From Candidatus Dormiibacterota bacterium (GTDB lineage Bacteria; Chloroflexota; Dormibacteria; Aeolococcales; Aeolococcaceae), in contig PKYW01000055.1 in assembly GCA_003132805.1 (NCBI GenBank), positions 1,599-39,866 of the forward strand: a stretch of 38,268 nt of DNA, given 5' to 3'. This document shows positions 3,355 through 9,066 of this stretch, piece by piece. Numbering within the stretch: position 1 is the first letter of the stretch; each line of letters starts with the position of its first letter. The notes under the pieces are model-generated. The model was given only the letters and a program-made list of their open reading frames with translations. It ran no database searches and was not told where the DNA came from. The position numbers and the translations under genes were made by a program.

Positions 3355-3418
3355 CCCCTGAGAATGTCACACGCCCGATGCCGAGGGCTGGTCAGGTGGT
3401 GCTTCGGGCCTCTTGCCC

Positions 3419-3434
3419 TATCCTCGTGCGGCCA
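3419..3434 (+). promoter_or_regulatory. -10 box of a probably leaderless promoter (ABC transporter)
   Basis: TATCCT at 3419-3424 ends 9 bases before ATG 3434, so transcription would begin at or within a few bases of the start codon. No Shine-Dalgarno lies in between. Other genes in the window have the same arrangement. Confidence 0.45.
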
Positions 3435-4450
3435 TGGCGCTCACCAACACCGATTTCGCCATCGAGGTCTCAGCGCTGCACAAGTCCTTCGGCAAGGTGC
3501 ATGCGCTGCGGGGCGTCGACTTCGCGGTCCCTCGGGGGAGCGTGCTCGGCATGCTTGGGCCCAACGGCGCCGGCAAGACCACCGCGGTGCGTGTGCTGAC
3601 GACGCTGCTGCGGCCGGATTCGGGGCGGGTCATCGTGGAGGGGTACGACGTGGTTCGTGACGCGGCTGCGGTGCGCCGCCGGATCGGCCTCGCCGGTCAG
3701 GCAACCGCGATCCAGCTCGAGCTGACCGGGCGCGAGAACCTCGAGATCATGGGCCGCCTCAACCACATGCCGCGATCGAGCGTCCGGGGCCGAGCCGCTG
3801 AGCTGCTCGAGCGCTTCGAGATCGCGGATGCGGCCGATCGACCGGCCAAGACGTACTCGGGTGGTATGCAGCGACGCCTCGACCTCGCGGCGAGCCTGAT
3901 CGCCGAGCCCTCCGTGCTCTTCCTCGATGAGCCGACCACCGGTCTCGACCCCTACGGGCGCCTCGGCATGTGGGACATCATCCGCGAGCTCGTCGGCCGG
4001 GGCACCACGCTGCTGCTGACCACGCAGTACCTCGAGGAAGCGGATGAGCTTGCGAACACGATCGTCGTGGTGGATCACGGCGAGGTCATCGCCTCGGGAA
4101 CGCCGGACCGGCTCAAGGACCAGGTGGGCGGCGATCTCCTCGAATTCACCGTTCCCGACCGCGCCCAACTCGACGACGCGGTGCGCGCCGTCGCCGGGCT
4201 GTCCGACTCCGCTCCGACTGTGGAGACCGATGCCAAGCGCATCAAGGTGCCCGTCGGGAGTGGCGGATCGACCGCGCTCGTGGAGGCGGTGCGGCGCCTG
4301 GACGCCGCCGGCGTCGTGACCGAGGACCTGGCGTTGCACCGACCGTCGCTCGACGACGTGTTCCTTGCGGTCACCGGCCATGCGGCCGAGGCCGCGCCGG
4401 ACGGTGCCGCGAAGGGCCAGAAGAGCCCGGCCGCCGGAGTGGCATCGTGA
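3434..4450 (+). CDS. ABC transporter ATP-binding protein, DrrA type
   Basis: Cytoplasmic ATPase of a drug-type ABC exporter, 338 residues. Walker A GPNGAGKT is at 42-49, the signature YSGGMQRRLDLA near 140, and Walker B with the catalytic Glu in LFLDEPTTGLDP near 162. An H-loop-like TTQYLEEAD follows, where Gln stands in the usual His position, as in DrrA-type proteins. The roughly 110-residue C-terminal extension is typical of the daunorubicin-resistance ATPase family. The ATG at 3434 is preferred to a TTG 21 bases upstream because the conserved domain starts directly after it and a -10 box is correctly placed. The permease gene overlaps its stop by 4 bases. Substrate unknown. Confidence 0.95.
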   Translation: MALTNTDFAIEVSALHKSFGKVHALRGVDFAVPRGSVLGMLGPNGAGKTTAVRVLTTLLRPDSGRVIVEGYDVVRDAAAVRRRIGLAGQATAIQLELTGRENLEIMGRLNHMPRSSVRGRAAELLERFEIADAADRPAKTYSGGMQRRLDLAASLIAEPSVLFLDEPTTGLDPYGRLGMWDIIRELVGRGTTLLLTTQYLEEADELANTIVVVDHGEVIASGTPDRLKDQVGGDLLEFTVPDRAQLDDAVRAVAGLSDSAPTVETDAKRIKVPVGSGGSTALVEAVRRLDAAGVVTEDLALHRPSLDDVFLAVTGHAAEAAPDGAAKGQKSPAAGVAS

Positions 4451-5274
4451 CCGCGATTGCAGAACCCCTGAAGTCCAGGGCTCGGCCCAGTGCCGCGCAG
4501 ATGGCCCGCTGGGCAATCAGCGATTCGCTCGTCATGACCCGGCGCAACCTTCTCGTGTGGCTGCGAGTCCCGGCCTACATCGTCTTCACTGTGGTGCAGC
4601 CGGTGATCTTCGTGCTGCTCTTCCGCTACGTGTTCGGCGGGGCAATCCACGCGCCGGGGTCGGGCGGGTATGTCAGCTACCTGATGCCCGGCATCATCGG
4701 ACAGACCGCGGCCTTCGCAACCTTTGCCACCGCAATCGCGCTGGCGCAGGAGGCGACGAAGGGAGTCATCGACCGTTTCCGCGCCATGCCCATGGCTCGC
4801 TCCGCCGTGCTCGCCGGACGGCTGATCGCCGACTCGATCCGCATGCTGATCGTGATCCTCGTGATCATCGGTGTCGGCTACGCGGTTGGGTTCCGCTTTC
4901 AGAATGGAGTCGCCGGCGCCGTCGGCATGGTGCTGCTCGCCGAGATTTTCGGCATCACGATCTGCTCCGTGTCGGCGTTCGTCGGGCTCGCGATCAAGGA
5001 CGAGGAATCGGTGCAGGCCTTCGGGCTGATCTGGATCTTCCCGCTGACGTTTGTCAGCTCCGCGTTCGTGCCGATCGCGACCATGCCCGGCTGGCTGCAG
5101 GTGTTCGCGAACAACCAGCCGGTGACGCTCGTGATCAACGCGATGCGGGCCATGGCGCTCGGTGGACCGGACTTCCCGCTCAACCCGTCACTCTGGGAAA
5201 GCCTCCTGTGGCTCGCAGGCATCCTCATCGTCTTCGTCCCGCTGGCAGTGTGGAGCTACCGGCGAGTCGGTTAG
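4447..5274 (+). CDS. ABC-2 type transporter permease, DrrB type
   Basis: Membrane partner of the preceding ATPase, 275 residues. It has a short cytoplasmic N terminus, then about six hydrophobic segments (IVFTVVQPVIFVLLFRYVFG is the first). The ABC-2 family pattern YVSYLMPGIIGQ and the EATKGVIDRFRAMPMAR coupling segment are clear. A late LTFVSSAFVPIATMPGWLQ block is also typical. The GTG start overlaps the ATPase stop as GTGA, so translation is coupled and the subunits are probably made in fixed ratio. Together they make a half-size exporter that works as a dimer of both proteins. The exported compound cannot be deduced. Confidence 0.94.
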   Translation: MTAIAEPLKSRARPSAAQMARWAISDSLVMTRRNLLVWLRVPAYIVFTVVQPVIFVLLFRYVFGGAIHAPGSGGYVSYLMPGIIGQTAAFATFATAIALAQEATKGVIDRFRAMPMARSAVLAGRLIADSIRMLIVILVIIGVGYAVGFRFQNGVAGAVGMVLLAEIFGITICSVSAFVGLAIKDEESVQAFGLIWIFPLTFVSSAFVPIATMPGWLQVFANNQPVTLVINAMRAMALGGPDFPLNPSLWESLLWLAGILIVFVPLAVWSYRRVG

Positions 5275-5287
5275 GGCGACATCGGTC

Positions 5288-7057
5288 TTGAACGGCAGGA
5301 GCTGGGTCGAGACCGCGGAGCTCCGCATCGGCCTCGGCTGTATGCGTTTGCCGGTCGACGATGACGTGGCAGGCGAGACGATCGCCGCAGCCGCAACGGC
5401 CGGGATCACGATCTTCGATACCGCGCACGCGTATGGCAGCGACGATACGGCGTCGGGACAGAACGAGCGGGTCCTGGCCCAGGCGCTGCGCGCGTGCGGC
5501 GCGGATCGTCGGGCGAGGATCGTCACCAAAGGTGGCATGACCCGCCCTGAGGGCGCCTGGATACCGGACGGCCGCGGCAAATCGATGCACGCGGATTGCG
5601 AGGCAAGCCTCGAAGCGCTTGGCGGCGTGACCATCGACCTCTACCTGATCCACGCCCCAGACCCGCGAACGCCGTGGCCCACGTCGGTGCGCGCGCTGGC
5701 GCGACTGCTGGACGAGGGCATGGTCAGCCATGTGGGACTTTCCAATGTCACCCGTCGTCAACTGGAGGAGGCCGTCGACCTTGTCGATGTCACCGCCATC
5801 GAGGTGGCGCTGAGTGCACTCGACGACACGGCCGTCCGGGGAGGGCTGCTCGAGCTCTGCAGCGAGCGCGGCATCGCGGTCATCGCCCATTCGCCGCTCG
5901 GCGGCCCACGCCGCGCCCGTGCACTCGCGCGGCGACCGGAACTCGTGGAAATCGCAGGTGCTCGCGATGCAACTCCGGAGGAGGTGGCGCTCGCCTGGGT
6001 GCTCGACCTCTCCCCTCTGATCATCGCCATCCCGGGAGCACGGCGGCCGGAGACGGCGCGGTCGGCGGCCCGCGCAGCCTCAATCGTGTTGACACAACGC
6101 GAGAGATCCACCCTCGCCGCCGCGTTCGGCTGGCCGCAAGCAGGACCTGCCAAGAGCTCCGCACCCGCGAAGGGCACGGCTGAGGTCGTGGTGGTCATGG
6201 GCGTTCCCGGCGCTGGGAAGAGCCGTCACGCTGAGGACTATGTTGCGCGCGGGTACGTTCGTCTGAACCGTGACGAACGCGGAGGGTCGCTGCGCGAGAT
6301 CAGCGACGCGCTCGACGCCGCGCTGGCTTCAGGTGAGCGTCGAATCGTCCTCGACAACACCTACCTTAGCCGCGCGGCGCGCAGTCACATCATCGAGAAA
6401 GCTGCACGGCATGGAGCCGTGGTCCGCTGCATCTGGATCGACACGCCACTCGCTCAGGCGCAGGTGAACATGGTCGAGCGTCTCCTCGACCGCTTCGGCT
6501 CGCTGCCGGACCCCGATCAGATCAGCGAAATGGCTCGCCGCGAGCCGGGACTGCTCAGTCCGACCAGGCAGATGCGCGCATTCCGTGAGCTCGAGCCGCC
6601 GTCGACGGATGAGGGCTTCGTTGAGGTGCAGCGGCAGGCATTCGAACGCTCGCCGCGCGTGTCGGCGAAGACCAACGACGCAGCGGCCGTGTTCGTGGCG
6701 GCCGGCGCGCTGTCCCGTCCGGGTTGGGAAGCTGCGGTGTCCACCACCACACCTGCATCCCCGCACTTGCTCTTCGACTGGAGACCGGGTGCGGGCACCG
6801 AAGTGCTCGATGCAGATGTGGCCCGGCTTGCGGCGACCGTGAGCGGTCCCGTCACCCCCGCGATCTGCCCGCATCCGGGTGGCGCACCCGTGTGCTGGTG
6901 CCGGCCACCACTTCCCGGGCTCATCCTCGAATTCGCGCGCACACATGGCGTCGACGTGACCCGCTCGGTGCTCGTCGGTACCGGTCCCGCCCACCGCACG
7001 CTTGCAACGACCATCGGTTCGCACTACCGCGCATTGGACAGCAGCGAACAGCGCTGA
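5288..7057 (+). CDS. Aldo/keto reductase fused to PNKP-like kinase and HAD-like tail
   Basis: A 589-residue three-part protein. Residues 10-280 are an aldo/keto reductase with the catalytic set D44, Y49, K81 and H122 (TIFDTAHAYG, VTKGG, YLIHAPDP). Residues about 298-455 are a P-loop domain with Walker A GVPGAGKS (305-312), NRDERG, LDNTYLSRAAR and VVRCIWIDTPLAQAQ, the pattern of the polynucleotide 5'-kinase domain of PNKP/T4 Pnk. Residues about 490-580 resemble the end of a HAD phosphatase: C527xH529 and C536xC538 match the zinc loop of GmhB/HisB-type enzymes and RPPLPGLIL follows, but the HAD catalytic Asp residues are missing. TTG at 5288 is the only plausible start before the first strand. 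It lies 13 bases after the ABC permease. The joint role is unknown. Confidence 0.85.
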   Translation: MNGRSWVETAELRIGLGCMRLPVDDDVAGETIAAAATAGITIFDTAHAYGSDDTASGQNERVLAQALRACGADRRARIVTKGGMTRPEGAWIPDGRGKSMHADCEASLEALGGVTIDLYLIHAPDPRTPWPTSVRALARLLDEGMVSHVGLSNVTRRQLEEAVDLVDVTAIEVALSALDDTAVRGGLLELCSERGIAVIAHSPLGGPRRARALARRPELVEIAGARDATPEEVALAWVLDLSPLIIAIPGARRPETARSAARAASIVLTQRERSTLAAAFGWPQAGPAKSSAPAKGTAEVVVVMGVPGAGKSRHAEDYVARGYVRLNRDERGGSLREISDALDAALASGERRIVLDNTYLSRAARSHIIEKAARHGAVVRCIWIDTPLAQAQVNMVERLLDRFGSLPDPDQISEMARREPGLLSPTRQMRAFRELEPPSTDEGFVEVQRQAFERSPRVSAKTNDAAAVFVAAGALSRPGWEAAVSTTTPASPHLLFDWRPGAGTEVLDADVARLAATVSGPVTPAICPHPGGAPVCWCRPPLPGLILEFARTHGVDVTRSVLVGTGPAHRTLATTIGSHYRALDSSEQR

Positions 7058-7074: not shown

Positions 7075-7818
7075 ATGGCGGAGCACTACGGCGCGCGCTT
7101 CTTCGGCGAGCGAGAGGCTGCGGTCTATGACCAGCAAGAGGCCGCCATGTTCGACCCGGCGGTCGTGACCCCGATGGTCGACGTGCTCGCGGACCTCGCC
7201 GGTGACGGTGACGTGCTGGAGATGGGCATCGGGACGGGCCGCATCGCGCTCCCGCTCGTGGCGCGCGGGATTCGCGTGCACGGTGTCGATGCGTCGTCGG
7301 CGATGGTCGCGAAACTGCGCGCGAAACCGGGCAACGACGCAATCGACGTCGCCATCGGCGACTTCTCGACCACCCGAGTCGACGGCCAGTTCAGCCTCGT
7401 CTACCTGATCTTCAACACGATCTTCAATCTCAAGACGCAGGACGAACAGGTTGCGTGCTTCGCGAATGCCGCGACACATCTCGCGCCTGGTGGCCACTTT
7501 GTCATCGAGCTCGAGGTTCCCAACCTGCGACGGCTGCCACCCGGCCAGGATGTCTTCGTCTTCCGCGTCGACGCACGCACCATGTCGTTCGACACGTACG
7601 ACGTCGTCACCCAGGGCCTCACCTCGAATCACTTCGTGCTCGAGGAGGACGGTAGGGTGAGCTCGTACCCCGTGGAAGGGCGCTACGCGTGGCCGTCAGA
7701 GCTCGACCTCATGGCACGCGTCGCGGGCCTGCGCCTTCGTGAACGCTGGGGTGGATGGAAACGAGAGCCGTTCACCAGCCTCAGCCGTTCGCATGTGTCG
7801 ATCTACGAAAAGACCTGA
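7075..7818 (+). CDS. Class I SAM-dependent methyltransferase
   Basis: Soluble 247-residue methyltransferase. The SAM-binding motif I is VLEMGIGTGRIALPL (about residues 44-58), the acidic end of strand 2 is VHGVDASSAM, and motif post-II FSLVYLIFNTIFNL is where the substrate-side loop lies. The C-terminal half, rich in beta strands (FRVDARTMSFDTYDVV), is of the type seen in small-molecule methyltransferases. ATG 7075 has only a weak GAGAG ribosome site. The gene follows the fusion gene by 17 bases and may be cotranscribed with it. It converges with the zinc-finger gene with only 13 bases between. Substrate unknown. Confidence 0.9.
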   Translation: MAEHYGARFFGEREAAVYDQQEAAMFDPAVVTPMVDVLADLAGDGDVLEMGIGTGRIALPLVARGIRVHGVDASSAMVAKLRAKPGNDAIDVAIGDFSTTRVDGQFSLVYLIFNTIFNLKTQDEQVACFANAATHLAPGGHFVIELEVPNLRRLPPGQDVFVFRVDARTMSFDTYDVVTQGLTSNHFVLEEDGRVSSYPVEGRYAWPSELDLMARVAGLRLRERWGGWKREPFTSLSRSHVSIYEKT

Positions 7819-7831
7819 GTGATATCGGTCG

Positions 7832-8128
7832 CTATGGATGCGACGGTGCAGGCGGAGCACCCGCGAGCTCGAACATGAGGTCATCGATGTAGCAGTAGTA
7901 CCAGTCCTCACCGGGCTCGTACGAGCGGATGATCGGATGACCGACCTTGTGGAAGTGGACCGTGGCATGTTTCAGGGGCGAGTTGTCGCAGCACCCGACA
8001 TGCCCGCATTCCTGGCAGACACGCAGGTGCACCCAATCGTGCCGTCCGAGGGCAAGGCAGTCGACACAACCGGTTCCCGATGGCGTCACATCCTTGATCT
8101 GGTCAAGATGCCCGCAGACTTTGCTCAT
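7832..8128 (-). CDS. UBP-type zinc finger protein
   Basis: Small 98-residue protein that is almost wholly a zf-UBP domain. Zinc ligands visible in order are CGHL, CVDC, CQECGHVGCCD, HATVHFHKVGH. The ending EDWYYCYIDDLMFE is typical of bacterial family members. In eukaryotes this domain binds the ubiquitin C terminus; bacterial copies have no proven ligand. The ATG at 8128 follows a GAGGAG site with good spacing, and a 24-residue upstream extension is just the tail of the DUF5996 frame read differently. The start overlaps the DUF5996 stop as ATGA, so the two are translationally coupled. Confidence 0.9.
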   Translation of the reverse strand: MSKVCGHLDQIKDVTPSGTGCVDCLALGRHDWVHLRVCQECGHVGCCDNSPLKHATVHFHKVGHPIIRSYEPGEDWYYCYIDDLMFELAGAPPAPSHP

Positions 8129-9066
8129 GTGGATCTCCTCGAACCGTGGGCGGTGGAAGACGGTGTGGGCTCGGCGAATTCCGTCAACTCCCTGCTCCAC
8201 GCCATACGTTTCGCCATTCCCTCATACGACGATGTGAGGAACTCGTGAAGAGCGCGTCGCGGATCCGCGCTCGAGCGCGCGTCGTCGTACAGGTAGAGAA
8301 ACTCGCCCGCGGTCGAGCTCCAGCCGGCCTCCCGTGGCTGCAGCGCGACATCCTGTATGCCTTCCGGCGCCGGGTACGCATAGGCGAAGAACGCCGGTGA
8401 CGCGAGGCGGTGGTCGCCGGGCCACCAGCCGGCACAGATCAGTTCAGCGTCTGAGCCGAAATGCCTGATGACACCGTCGCCGGTATCCGGCTGCACGAGC
8501 CGGCCTGAGTATCGCGTGAGGGCGAGGTCGAAGCTGCCCCAGAAGAAGTGCACCGGGGACGTGCGGCCGCGAAACCGAGCGCGGTGCTCCTTCATCACCA
8601 CGTCGATCATCGAGAGCACGTGGTGAAAGCGCTCCGCCTGTGATCCGTCGTACGTGGCGTGCACGCGATCCTCCGGGAACGGAATCGGATCCGGTACCTC
8701 CGACGGGGTCTCGGAGATGGCGACGTCGATCCCCATGCGTCGCAGCGCCGCCATGACGTCGGCGTAGAAGTCGGCCACCGCGCCGCCGAGCGGGCGGCGC
8801 TCAGTCCTTCCATCGCTCCCGCGGAGCACGAGCACGTGGTCGTGGAGGTCGAGCTCGGCGTCAAACGTTCGCAGGCCGAACGGCACTGGGGAGGTCGCCA
8901 ACCCCCGGGCGGTGACGTAGAGCGCGACGTTAGCCCATCCCGGCTCGAAGGGGCTGAGCGCGAGGCGAAGCTTGCCGATCACCTGCGCATACATGTGCAG
9001 GGTGTCCCGAGTGTCGCGCCACTCCTCATACGGCAGAGCCAGCCACTCCCCGGCAGCGTCGCCCAT
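8125..9066 (-). CDS. DUF5996 family protein
   Basis: A 313-residue soluble protein of a family with no assigned function. Recognisable blocks are LPYEEWRDTRDTLHMYAQ at the N terminus, the KLRLALSPFEPGWANVALYV strand pair, VHFFWGSFDLALTRYSGR in the middle, and the acidic-aromatic ICAGWWPGD with FFAYAYPAPEG. It has no signal peptide or membrane segment. ATG 9066 starts right at the conserved block. It is the first gene of a two-gene unit with the UBP zinc-finger gene and diverges from the MFS exporter with 86 bases between. The conserved Trp, His and Asp residues suggest an enzyme, but this is only inference. Confidence 0.85.
   Translation of the reverse strand: MGDAAGEWLALPYEEWRDTRDTLHMYAQVIGKLRLALSPFEPGWANVALYVTARGLATSPVPFGLRTFDAELDLHDHVLVLRGSDGRTERRPLGGAVADFYADVMAALRRMGIDVAISETPSEVPDPIPFPEDRVHATYDGSQAERFHHVLSMIDVVMKEHRARFRGRTSPVHFFWGSFDLALTRYSGRLVQPDTGDGVIRHFGSDAELICAGWWPGDHRLASPAFFAYAYPAPEGIQDVALQPREAGWSSTAGEFLYLYDDARSSADPRRALHEFLTSSYEGMAKRMAWSRELTEFAEPTPSSTAHGSRRST

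Follow-up and report, generated by a model that had tools for sequence, protein, structure and literature searches.

An aldo/keto reductase fused to a PNKP-type kinase and a pseudo-phosphatase in soil bacteria: a candidate two-step enzyme for healing the ends of broken nucleic acid

The window analysed here, a stretch of 38,268 nucleotides from a Candidatus Dormiibacterota bacterium (contig PKYW01000055.1), carries at 5288-7057 on the forward strand an open frame of 589 codons that starts at a TTG and lies in a stop-to-stop frame of about 640 amino acids with zero internal stops. The frame encodes an aldo/keto reductase (AKR), which is intact, followed by a PNKP-type kinase and then by a HisB/GmhB-type HAD domain that is devoid of catalytic motifs. 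Its TTG codon lies 13 nt past the stop of a gene for an ABC-2 type exporter permease (4447-5274, +; Pfam ABC2_membrane, 4.5e-27), which is preceded by a gene for a DrrA-type ABC exporter ATPase (3413-4450, +; ABC_tran, 8e-31; DrrA1-3_C, 2e-4), and a DrrAB-type exporter lies ahead of the fusion gene in the window's genus. A class I methyltransferase gene starts 17 nt downstream of the fusion (7075-7818, +; Methyltransf_25, 2.5e-14). Beyond it, on the other strand, are a small protein with a zf-UBP zinc finger of the ubiquitin-hydrolase type (7832-8200, -; 5e-9) and an adjoining DUF5996 gene (8125-9066, -). AlphaFold2, given an alignment of 44 homologues, predicts the whole fusion product to be a confidently folded single protein with a confident overall domain arrangement (mean pLDDT 92.0, pTM 0.89). 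The coordinates, residues, motifs and family assignments put forward in an earlier sequence-only reading of this DNA were all borne out by profiles, conservation and structure, and the three-domain architecture that it described has the full support of profile matches, predicted structure and conserved residues.

The AKR domain spans residues 13-276 (5324-6115, +; Pfam PF00248, Aldo_ket_red, 5e-46), and when the whole model is compared with the PDB by Foldseek, AKR11A, perakine reductase and AKR13B2 are matched at E values of about 1e-20. The catalytic tetrad, spread over 5417-5653 (+), consists of D44 (5417-5419), Y49 (5432-5434), K81 (5528-5530) and H122 (5651-5653) and is unchanged in 44/44 homologues, so that the domain is as complete as had been claimed. 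NAD(P)H-dependent reduction of a carbonyl is its predicted activity. The closest AKRs of solved structure have small-molecule substrates, pyridoxal reductase being an example.

The kinase domain occupies residues 297-452 (6176-6643, +). It is matched by Pfam AAA_33 (6e-13, residues 300-400) and by the NCBIfam PNKP model TIGR01663 (9e-16, residues 295-405, the match being confined to the kinase part), and a profile of the family matches mammalian PNKP with 2e-14 over 156 positions and T4 Pnk weakly (0.017). In the alignment to mammalian PNKP the likeness runs beyond the P-loop, as far as an E-x-P-x-x-x-E-G-F tail. The P-loop itself, GVPGAGKS (residues 305-312; 6200-6223, +), has its lysine K311 in 46/47 rows, the exception being a homologue (L079) whose remaining P-loop is missing too. 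R328 and D329 of the NRD motif (residues 327-329; 6266-6274, +) are found in 48/48 rows, D329 presumably being the general base, as one would expect from what is known of PNKP and T4 Pnk; D356 and T358 of the DNT motif (residues 356-358; 6353-6361, +) are found in 49/49 rows, and E442 and G443 in 50/50. When the whole model was searched against a viral structure library with Foldseek, AKRs came first and, after them, polynucleotide kinase/phosphatases from phages and giant viruses, a PseT entry included. The presence and conservation of the three motifs and the agreement of profile and viral structure library thus sustain the assignment of the P-loop domain to the PNKP type, and placement in a non-PNKP kinase family with no HAD fold behind it, which had been named as a refuting outcome, is ruled out by profiles and structure. 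Among solved small-molecule kinases none matched the family profile at E < 0.1, apart from two fungal P-loop kinases. These structures (PDB 9d8a_A, 2e-5; 9drz_A, 1e-4) are the sole solved profile matches besides PNKP and T4 Pnk, and a search of the open literature gave no function for them. The domain is predicted to phosphorylate 5'-OH groups of nucleic acid.

The last domain (residues 466-582; 6683-7033, +) is predicted to adopt a HAD fold, AlphaFold2 giving it a pLDDT of 88.6 and a pTM of 0.83 when modelled by itself. GmhB (3l8h, 4e-4; also 3l8e and 2gmw) and HisB (2fpr, 1e-3) top the list of its Foldseek matches in the PDB, the HisB-type NCBIfam model TIGR01656 matches residues 525-573 (4e-5), and the profile reaches GmhB with 6e-8; structure prediction and Foldseek thereby uphold the proposal of a GmhB/HisB-like fold in the tail. 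None of the features of an active phosphatase is left in the window: DxDGT, the Ser/Thr of motif II, the Lys of motif III and the acids of motif IV are all missing. Motif I (hhhDhDGT), intact in the phage relatives described below, is reduced to AAVFVAAGAL (6683-6712, +), with AA in place of the two aspartates whose absence had already been remarked upon, and none of the rows has an intact Asp pair. The lysine of CRKP is replaced by proline (CRPP) in 50/50 rows, and the motif IV acids, lost in the window where sequence comparison places VLVGTGPAHRTLA (6968-7006, +) in the position of hhVGDxxxDxxFA, are mostly lost elsewhere. The zinc-knuckle block CPHPGGAPVCWCRPPLPG (6866-6919, +), by contrast, has an invariant core: C527, H529, C536, W537, C538 and R539, P540, P541, L542, P543, which make up the CxH...CxC and RPPLPG tail that was noticed at the outset, are unchanged in 50/50 rows, as is W498. 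Since the scan by which loci were gathered used the patterns PLAQAQVN and CWCRPPLP, the set is biased towards rows that keep the CWCRPPLP block; loci from pattern-free searches, in the window's family and in Thermoleophilia, carry the same block. With its catalytic motifs lost and its zinc block unchanged, the domain is, on sequence grounds, a pseudo-phosphatase, and its zinc-knuckle loop is very strongly constrained. Zinc would be bound by the CxH...CxC block by analogy with HisB/GmhB. We rejected the idea that the HAD domain works through some other motif, since the window has lost motifs I, III and IV and an intact Asp pair is missing from every member of the fusion family, and also the classification of this protein as a bifunctional PNKP (kinase plus 3'-phosphatase), the active-phosphatase motifs being all missing.

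When genomes were scanned, one for each species, 54 related loci emerged, from Dormibacterota or Chloroflexi, Thermoleophilia/Solirubrobacterales, Myxococcota and Vicinamibacteria. The three domains share a single frame in 43 of them, which belong to Dormibacterota, Thermoleophilia and Myxococcota, so that soil bacteria of three or more phyla have the three-part protein. We found no description of an AKR-PNK fusion in the open literature. Occurrence is patchy (11/399 genomes of Thermoleophilia, 14/195 of the Myxococcota set and, at high score, 10/32 of the window's family), and the genomes carrying relatives are mostly metagenome-assembled. The distances between homologues computed from the AKR and from the kinase-HAD part are strongly correlated (Mantel r 0.90; 0/2000 permutations), which argues that the two parts have been inherited together. 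There is therefore next to no chance that the frame is an assembly fusion or a chance reading of unrelated frames: whereas the window's assembly is fragmented (109 contigs), the other one-frame loci come from several phyla and from independent studies, and separate genes in related genomes, which would point to such an artefact, are not what those loci show. On plasmids, the relatives found were confined to HAD phosphatases of the ordinary kind, AKRs with identities of at most about 40% and weak kinase matches. Two further frames deserve mention as observations in their own right: one, in a genome of the window's family, looks like a HAD-IIIA phosphatase with a transaldolase-like part behind it (L026:1249-2562), and another like a GmhB-like HAD phosphatase joined to a GmhA-like sugar isomerase part (L012:796-2181, -).

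What is new here is the likely origin of the fusion, the family assignments having been made already in the sequence-only reading. A tblastn search of phage records found a collinear relative in two large phage genomes, and a search of IMG/VR with a mixed alignment found 20 loci; scans of IMG/VR with the window protein alone, or with a single phage protein alone, gave no match. Those phage relatives whose sequence was read out completely consist of the kinase followed by the HAD domain, lack the AKR and have intact HAD motifs (DxDGT/DxDDT, NQSG/NQSA, CxH...CYCRKP, GDxTxDxTFA), and in the three that were checked Pfam PNK3P scores above its cut-off. The kinase-then-phosphatase order, which had been likened to that of T4 Pnk, is thus confirmed and can be traced to phage proteins with an intact phosphatase. 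Two Vicinamibacteria loci (L106, L107) also encode kinase and HAD without an AKR, and in these the HAD domain is already broken (RYE for DxD, CRPP for CRKP); a chromosomal relative with an intact HAD domain was not found in about 390 genomes of Acidobacteriota and Myxococcota. In a tree rooted on the phage proteins, which is an assumption, the Vicinamibacteria branch first, followed by a single clade that holds every AKR fusion (100/98), and inside the latter Myxococcota are basal and a clade of Dormibacterota/Chloroflexota and Actinomycetota is nested (100/100). The simplest history that these sequences suggest is that an active kinase/3'-phosphatase lost its phosphatase, was fused once to an AKR and then spread between phyla; the reverse, i.e. 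the gain of four motifs, is unlikely. The ancestor would accordingly be pictured as a two-domain polynucleotide kinase/3'-phosphatase with the kinase first, in which the phosphatase lost catalysis and kept its zinc knuckle, and in front of which the AKR was placed. It is on comparison, then, that the domain identities, the catalytic conservation of AKR and kinase, the loss of HAD motifs, the single-clade fusion and the co-inheritance of its parts are established.

Several genes were seen near the phage relatives. A WGR plus PARP gene lies within a few kb in three cases (L149:8270-9559, L154:1690-2976 and L165:2688-3959; its regions were Pfam-checked in the first two and assigned by sequence only in the third) and looks like a break sensor of the PARP1/2 kind, close to an enzyme that heals ends. 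An RNA ligase is found near one relative (L165:10316-11359) and KptA/Tpt1 directly behind another (L157:7030-7644), which suggests phage RNA repair cassettes. In the 595 kb phage genome LR756511.1, a gene resembling glutamine-dependent NAD synthetase lies about 1 kb from the PNKP gene (L147:9898-11577).

In the bacterial loci, a gene for a LigD primase-polymerase (Pfam PF21686, 1e-90) adjoins the fusion in three Thermoleophilia loci and in two arrangements: in L064 it lies upstream and is separated from the fusion by a PolX-like HHH/PHP gene, and in L066 and L068, which are sister loci, it lies downstream and is followed by ExoIII. The denominator is about 13 Actinomycetota loci with useful flanks, and since these genomes have 1-5 LigD primase-polymerase genes each per 1.5-5.7 Mb, we estimate that chance linkage within a few kb would occur at roughly 0.5-1% per locus. 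No repair-gene neighbours were found in Dormibacterota, the window included, or recurrently in the Myxococcota loci. Neighbour lists are approximate beyond the Pfam-checked genes, because the simple gene caller behind them gets strands wrong where contigs are very GC-rich; each neighbour used as evidence was Pfam-checked. No operon partner conserved across phyla was found, a small CBS-domain cluster near six loci having been rejected as a generic paralogue match. At the level of whole genomes, LigD primase-polymerase is present in 34/34 genomes searched (32 with the fusion, two with the AKR-less form) and Ku in 30; in the genome of the window, both LigD and Ku genes are found, on contigs other than this one. 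The carriers in Thermoleophilia show no enrichment of Ku (9/11 versus 264/388, p 0.51), and the excess of Ku in Myxococcota (12/13 versus 78/176, p 8e-4) is confounded by relatedness; Ku co-occurrence was consequently rejected as proof of a role in NHEJ.

Among known systems, eukaryotic PNKP has a kinase with the same GxPGAGKS, NRD and DNT motifs and ExP...EGF tail (about 155 residues) joined to a HAD-fold domain, but in the fusion the kinase precedes the HAD domain, the latter is dead and of the zinc HisB/GmhB type, an AKR is added and FHA is absent. Closer are the phage kinase-PNK3P proteins (L147-L165), which are collinear over kinase and zinc HAD, in the same order and with 26-30% identity to the fusion family, and which differ in their intact HAD motifs and in lacking the AKR. 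T4 Pnk shares the kinase-then-HAD order and the logic of a bifunctional ancestor; apart from the weakness of its sequence match, its phosphatase has no zinc knuckle and it has no AKR. The GmhB and HisB-N phosphatases share the HAD fold and the CxH...CxC zinc block, whereas the fusion has lost the DxD nucleophile pair, motif II, the motif III lysine and the motif IV acids. In Deinococcus, the HD-PNK protein DRB0098 likewise joins a bacterial polynucleotide kinase to a second enzyme, is encoded in a putative repair operon and has demonstrated kinase activity (PMC1997131); there, however, the partner is an HD phosphatase that precedes the kinase, not a HAD domain that follows it, and an AKR is absent.

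From all this we think it probable that the fusion protein serves to heal nucleic-acid ends in some form. Our fuller proposal is a tentative one, namely that breaks in nucleic acid, most probably in DNA, have their 5' ends healed in two steps. The AKR would use NADPH to reduce a terminal nucleoside-5'-aldehyde, a product of C5' oxidation, to a 5'-hydroxyl, the PNKP-type kinase would then use ATP to turn the hydroxyl into a 5'-phosphate that a ligase can seal, and the pseudo-phosphatase may provide a platform for nucleic acid or for docking; that the substrate is nucleic acid, the order of the steps and this role of the third domain are what we infer. The most specific version, in which a single polypeptide directly reverses 5'-aldehydes on DNA by NADPH reduction and subsequent ATP phosphorylation with no nucleotides cut out, is unlikely as it stands, and we know of no redox enzyme that acts thus on a DNA terminus. 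In favour of end healing, the product of the AKR, a primary alcohol, would be the kind of substrate on which a 5'-kinase acts, which makes for an ordered chemistry; the kinase has PNKP features past the P-loop, and the viral library returns polynucleotide kinase/phosphatases; there are two-domain phage relatives with intact PNK3P, some of them near PARP, RNA ligase or KptA; the AKR fusions form one clade with correlated distances of their parts; there are LigD, ExoIII and PolX-like neighbours in Thermoleophilia; and LigD is present in all, and Ku in most, of the genomes searched. Against it count the absence or non-recurrence of repair neighbours in Dormibacterota and Myxococcota, Ku statistics that are uninformative or confounded, and the promiscuity of AKRs, whose nearest solved representatives here reduce small molecules. 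No DNA-binding domain is recognisable in the fusion protein. Action on damaged 3' ends, an option raised by the sequence-only reading, is less likely, since the domain that would act at 3' ends has lost its catalytic residues and the 5'-kinase and AKR have kept theirs; a 5'-aldehyde end fits better.

It is possible, though rather unlikely, that the protein is instead a bifunctional enzyme of small-molecule metabolism, in which the AKR turns an aldose or some other aldehyde into an alcohol (for instance a sugar alcohol or a modified nucleoside) that the kinase phosphorylates, the likeness to PNKP reflecting ancestry only. Reduction followed by phosphorylation would be equally logical for metabolites, the substrates of the nearest solved AKRs agree with it, and a setting between a DrrAB-type exporter and a methyltransferase, as in the window, would also fit. 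However, the kinase keeps the PNKP motifs and matches PNKP rather than sugar kinases, the dead phosphatase descends from a lineage of polynucleotide 3'-phosphatases, and such a role would leave aside the LigD, ExoIII and PolX-like neighbours in Thermoleophilia. Repair of RNA ends, with the kinase healing the 5'-OH of cleaved RNA and the AKR acting on an RNA-derived or crosslinking aldehyde, would agree with the RNA ligase and KptA/Tpt1 genes near phage relatives and with T4 Pnk being an RNA repair enzyme; it is improbable, given that neither RNA ligase nor RtcB was noticed beside the bacterial fusions, that the repair neighbours seen are DNA enzymes and that near some phage copies there is, instead, a PARP gene. 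Still more doubtful is a reductase retained as a redox sensor, whose binding of NADPH would tune the kinase to the redox state of the cell. The AKR beta subunits of Kv channels, in which an AKR serves as a sensor, are among the search matches, and the confident overall arrangement of the model would suit such coupling, but the tetrad is unchanged in every homologue, which goes beyond the needs of binding, even if Kv beta keeps its tetrad too.

For the 5'-end healing proposed here, the substrate would be a common one. Nucleoside-5'-aldehyde ends arise from oxidation of C5' by radicals and by enediynes of the neocarzinostatin type, are frequent and are stable for days, and the sole route described for them in a 2025 review is non-specific long-patch removal in vitro, by polymerase beta displacement and FEN1 (PMC12564780). 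For double-strand breaks induced by enediynes, the mechanism by which 5'-aldehyde ends are dealt with has been called essentially unknown (PMC3825254). A conserved reductase-kinase fusion of PNKP ancestry would offer a specific enzymatic answer for such ends, one that could be tested with a single purified protein, and if the proposal is true, selection by C5'-oxidising enediyne antibiotics in soil is possible. The family also provides a clear example of a repair phosphatase turned pseudoenzyme, with its zinc block frozen and its catalytic motifs gone, and the fusion that carries it is possibly an enzyme dedicated to repairing, in two steps, the oxidised ends of broken DNA.
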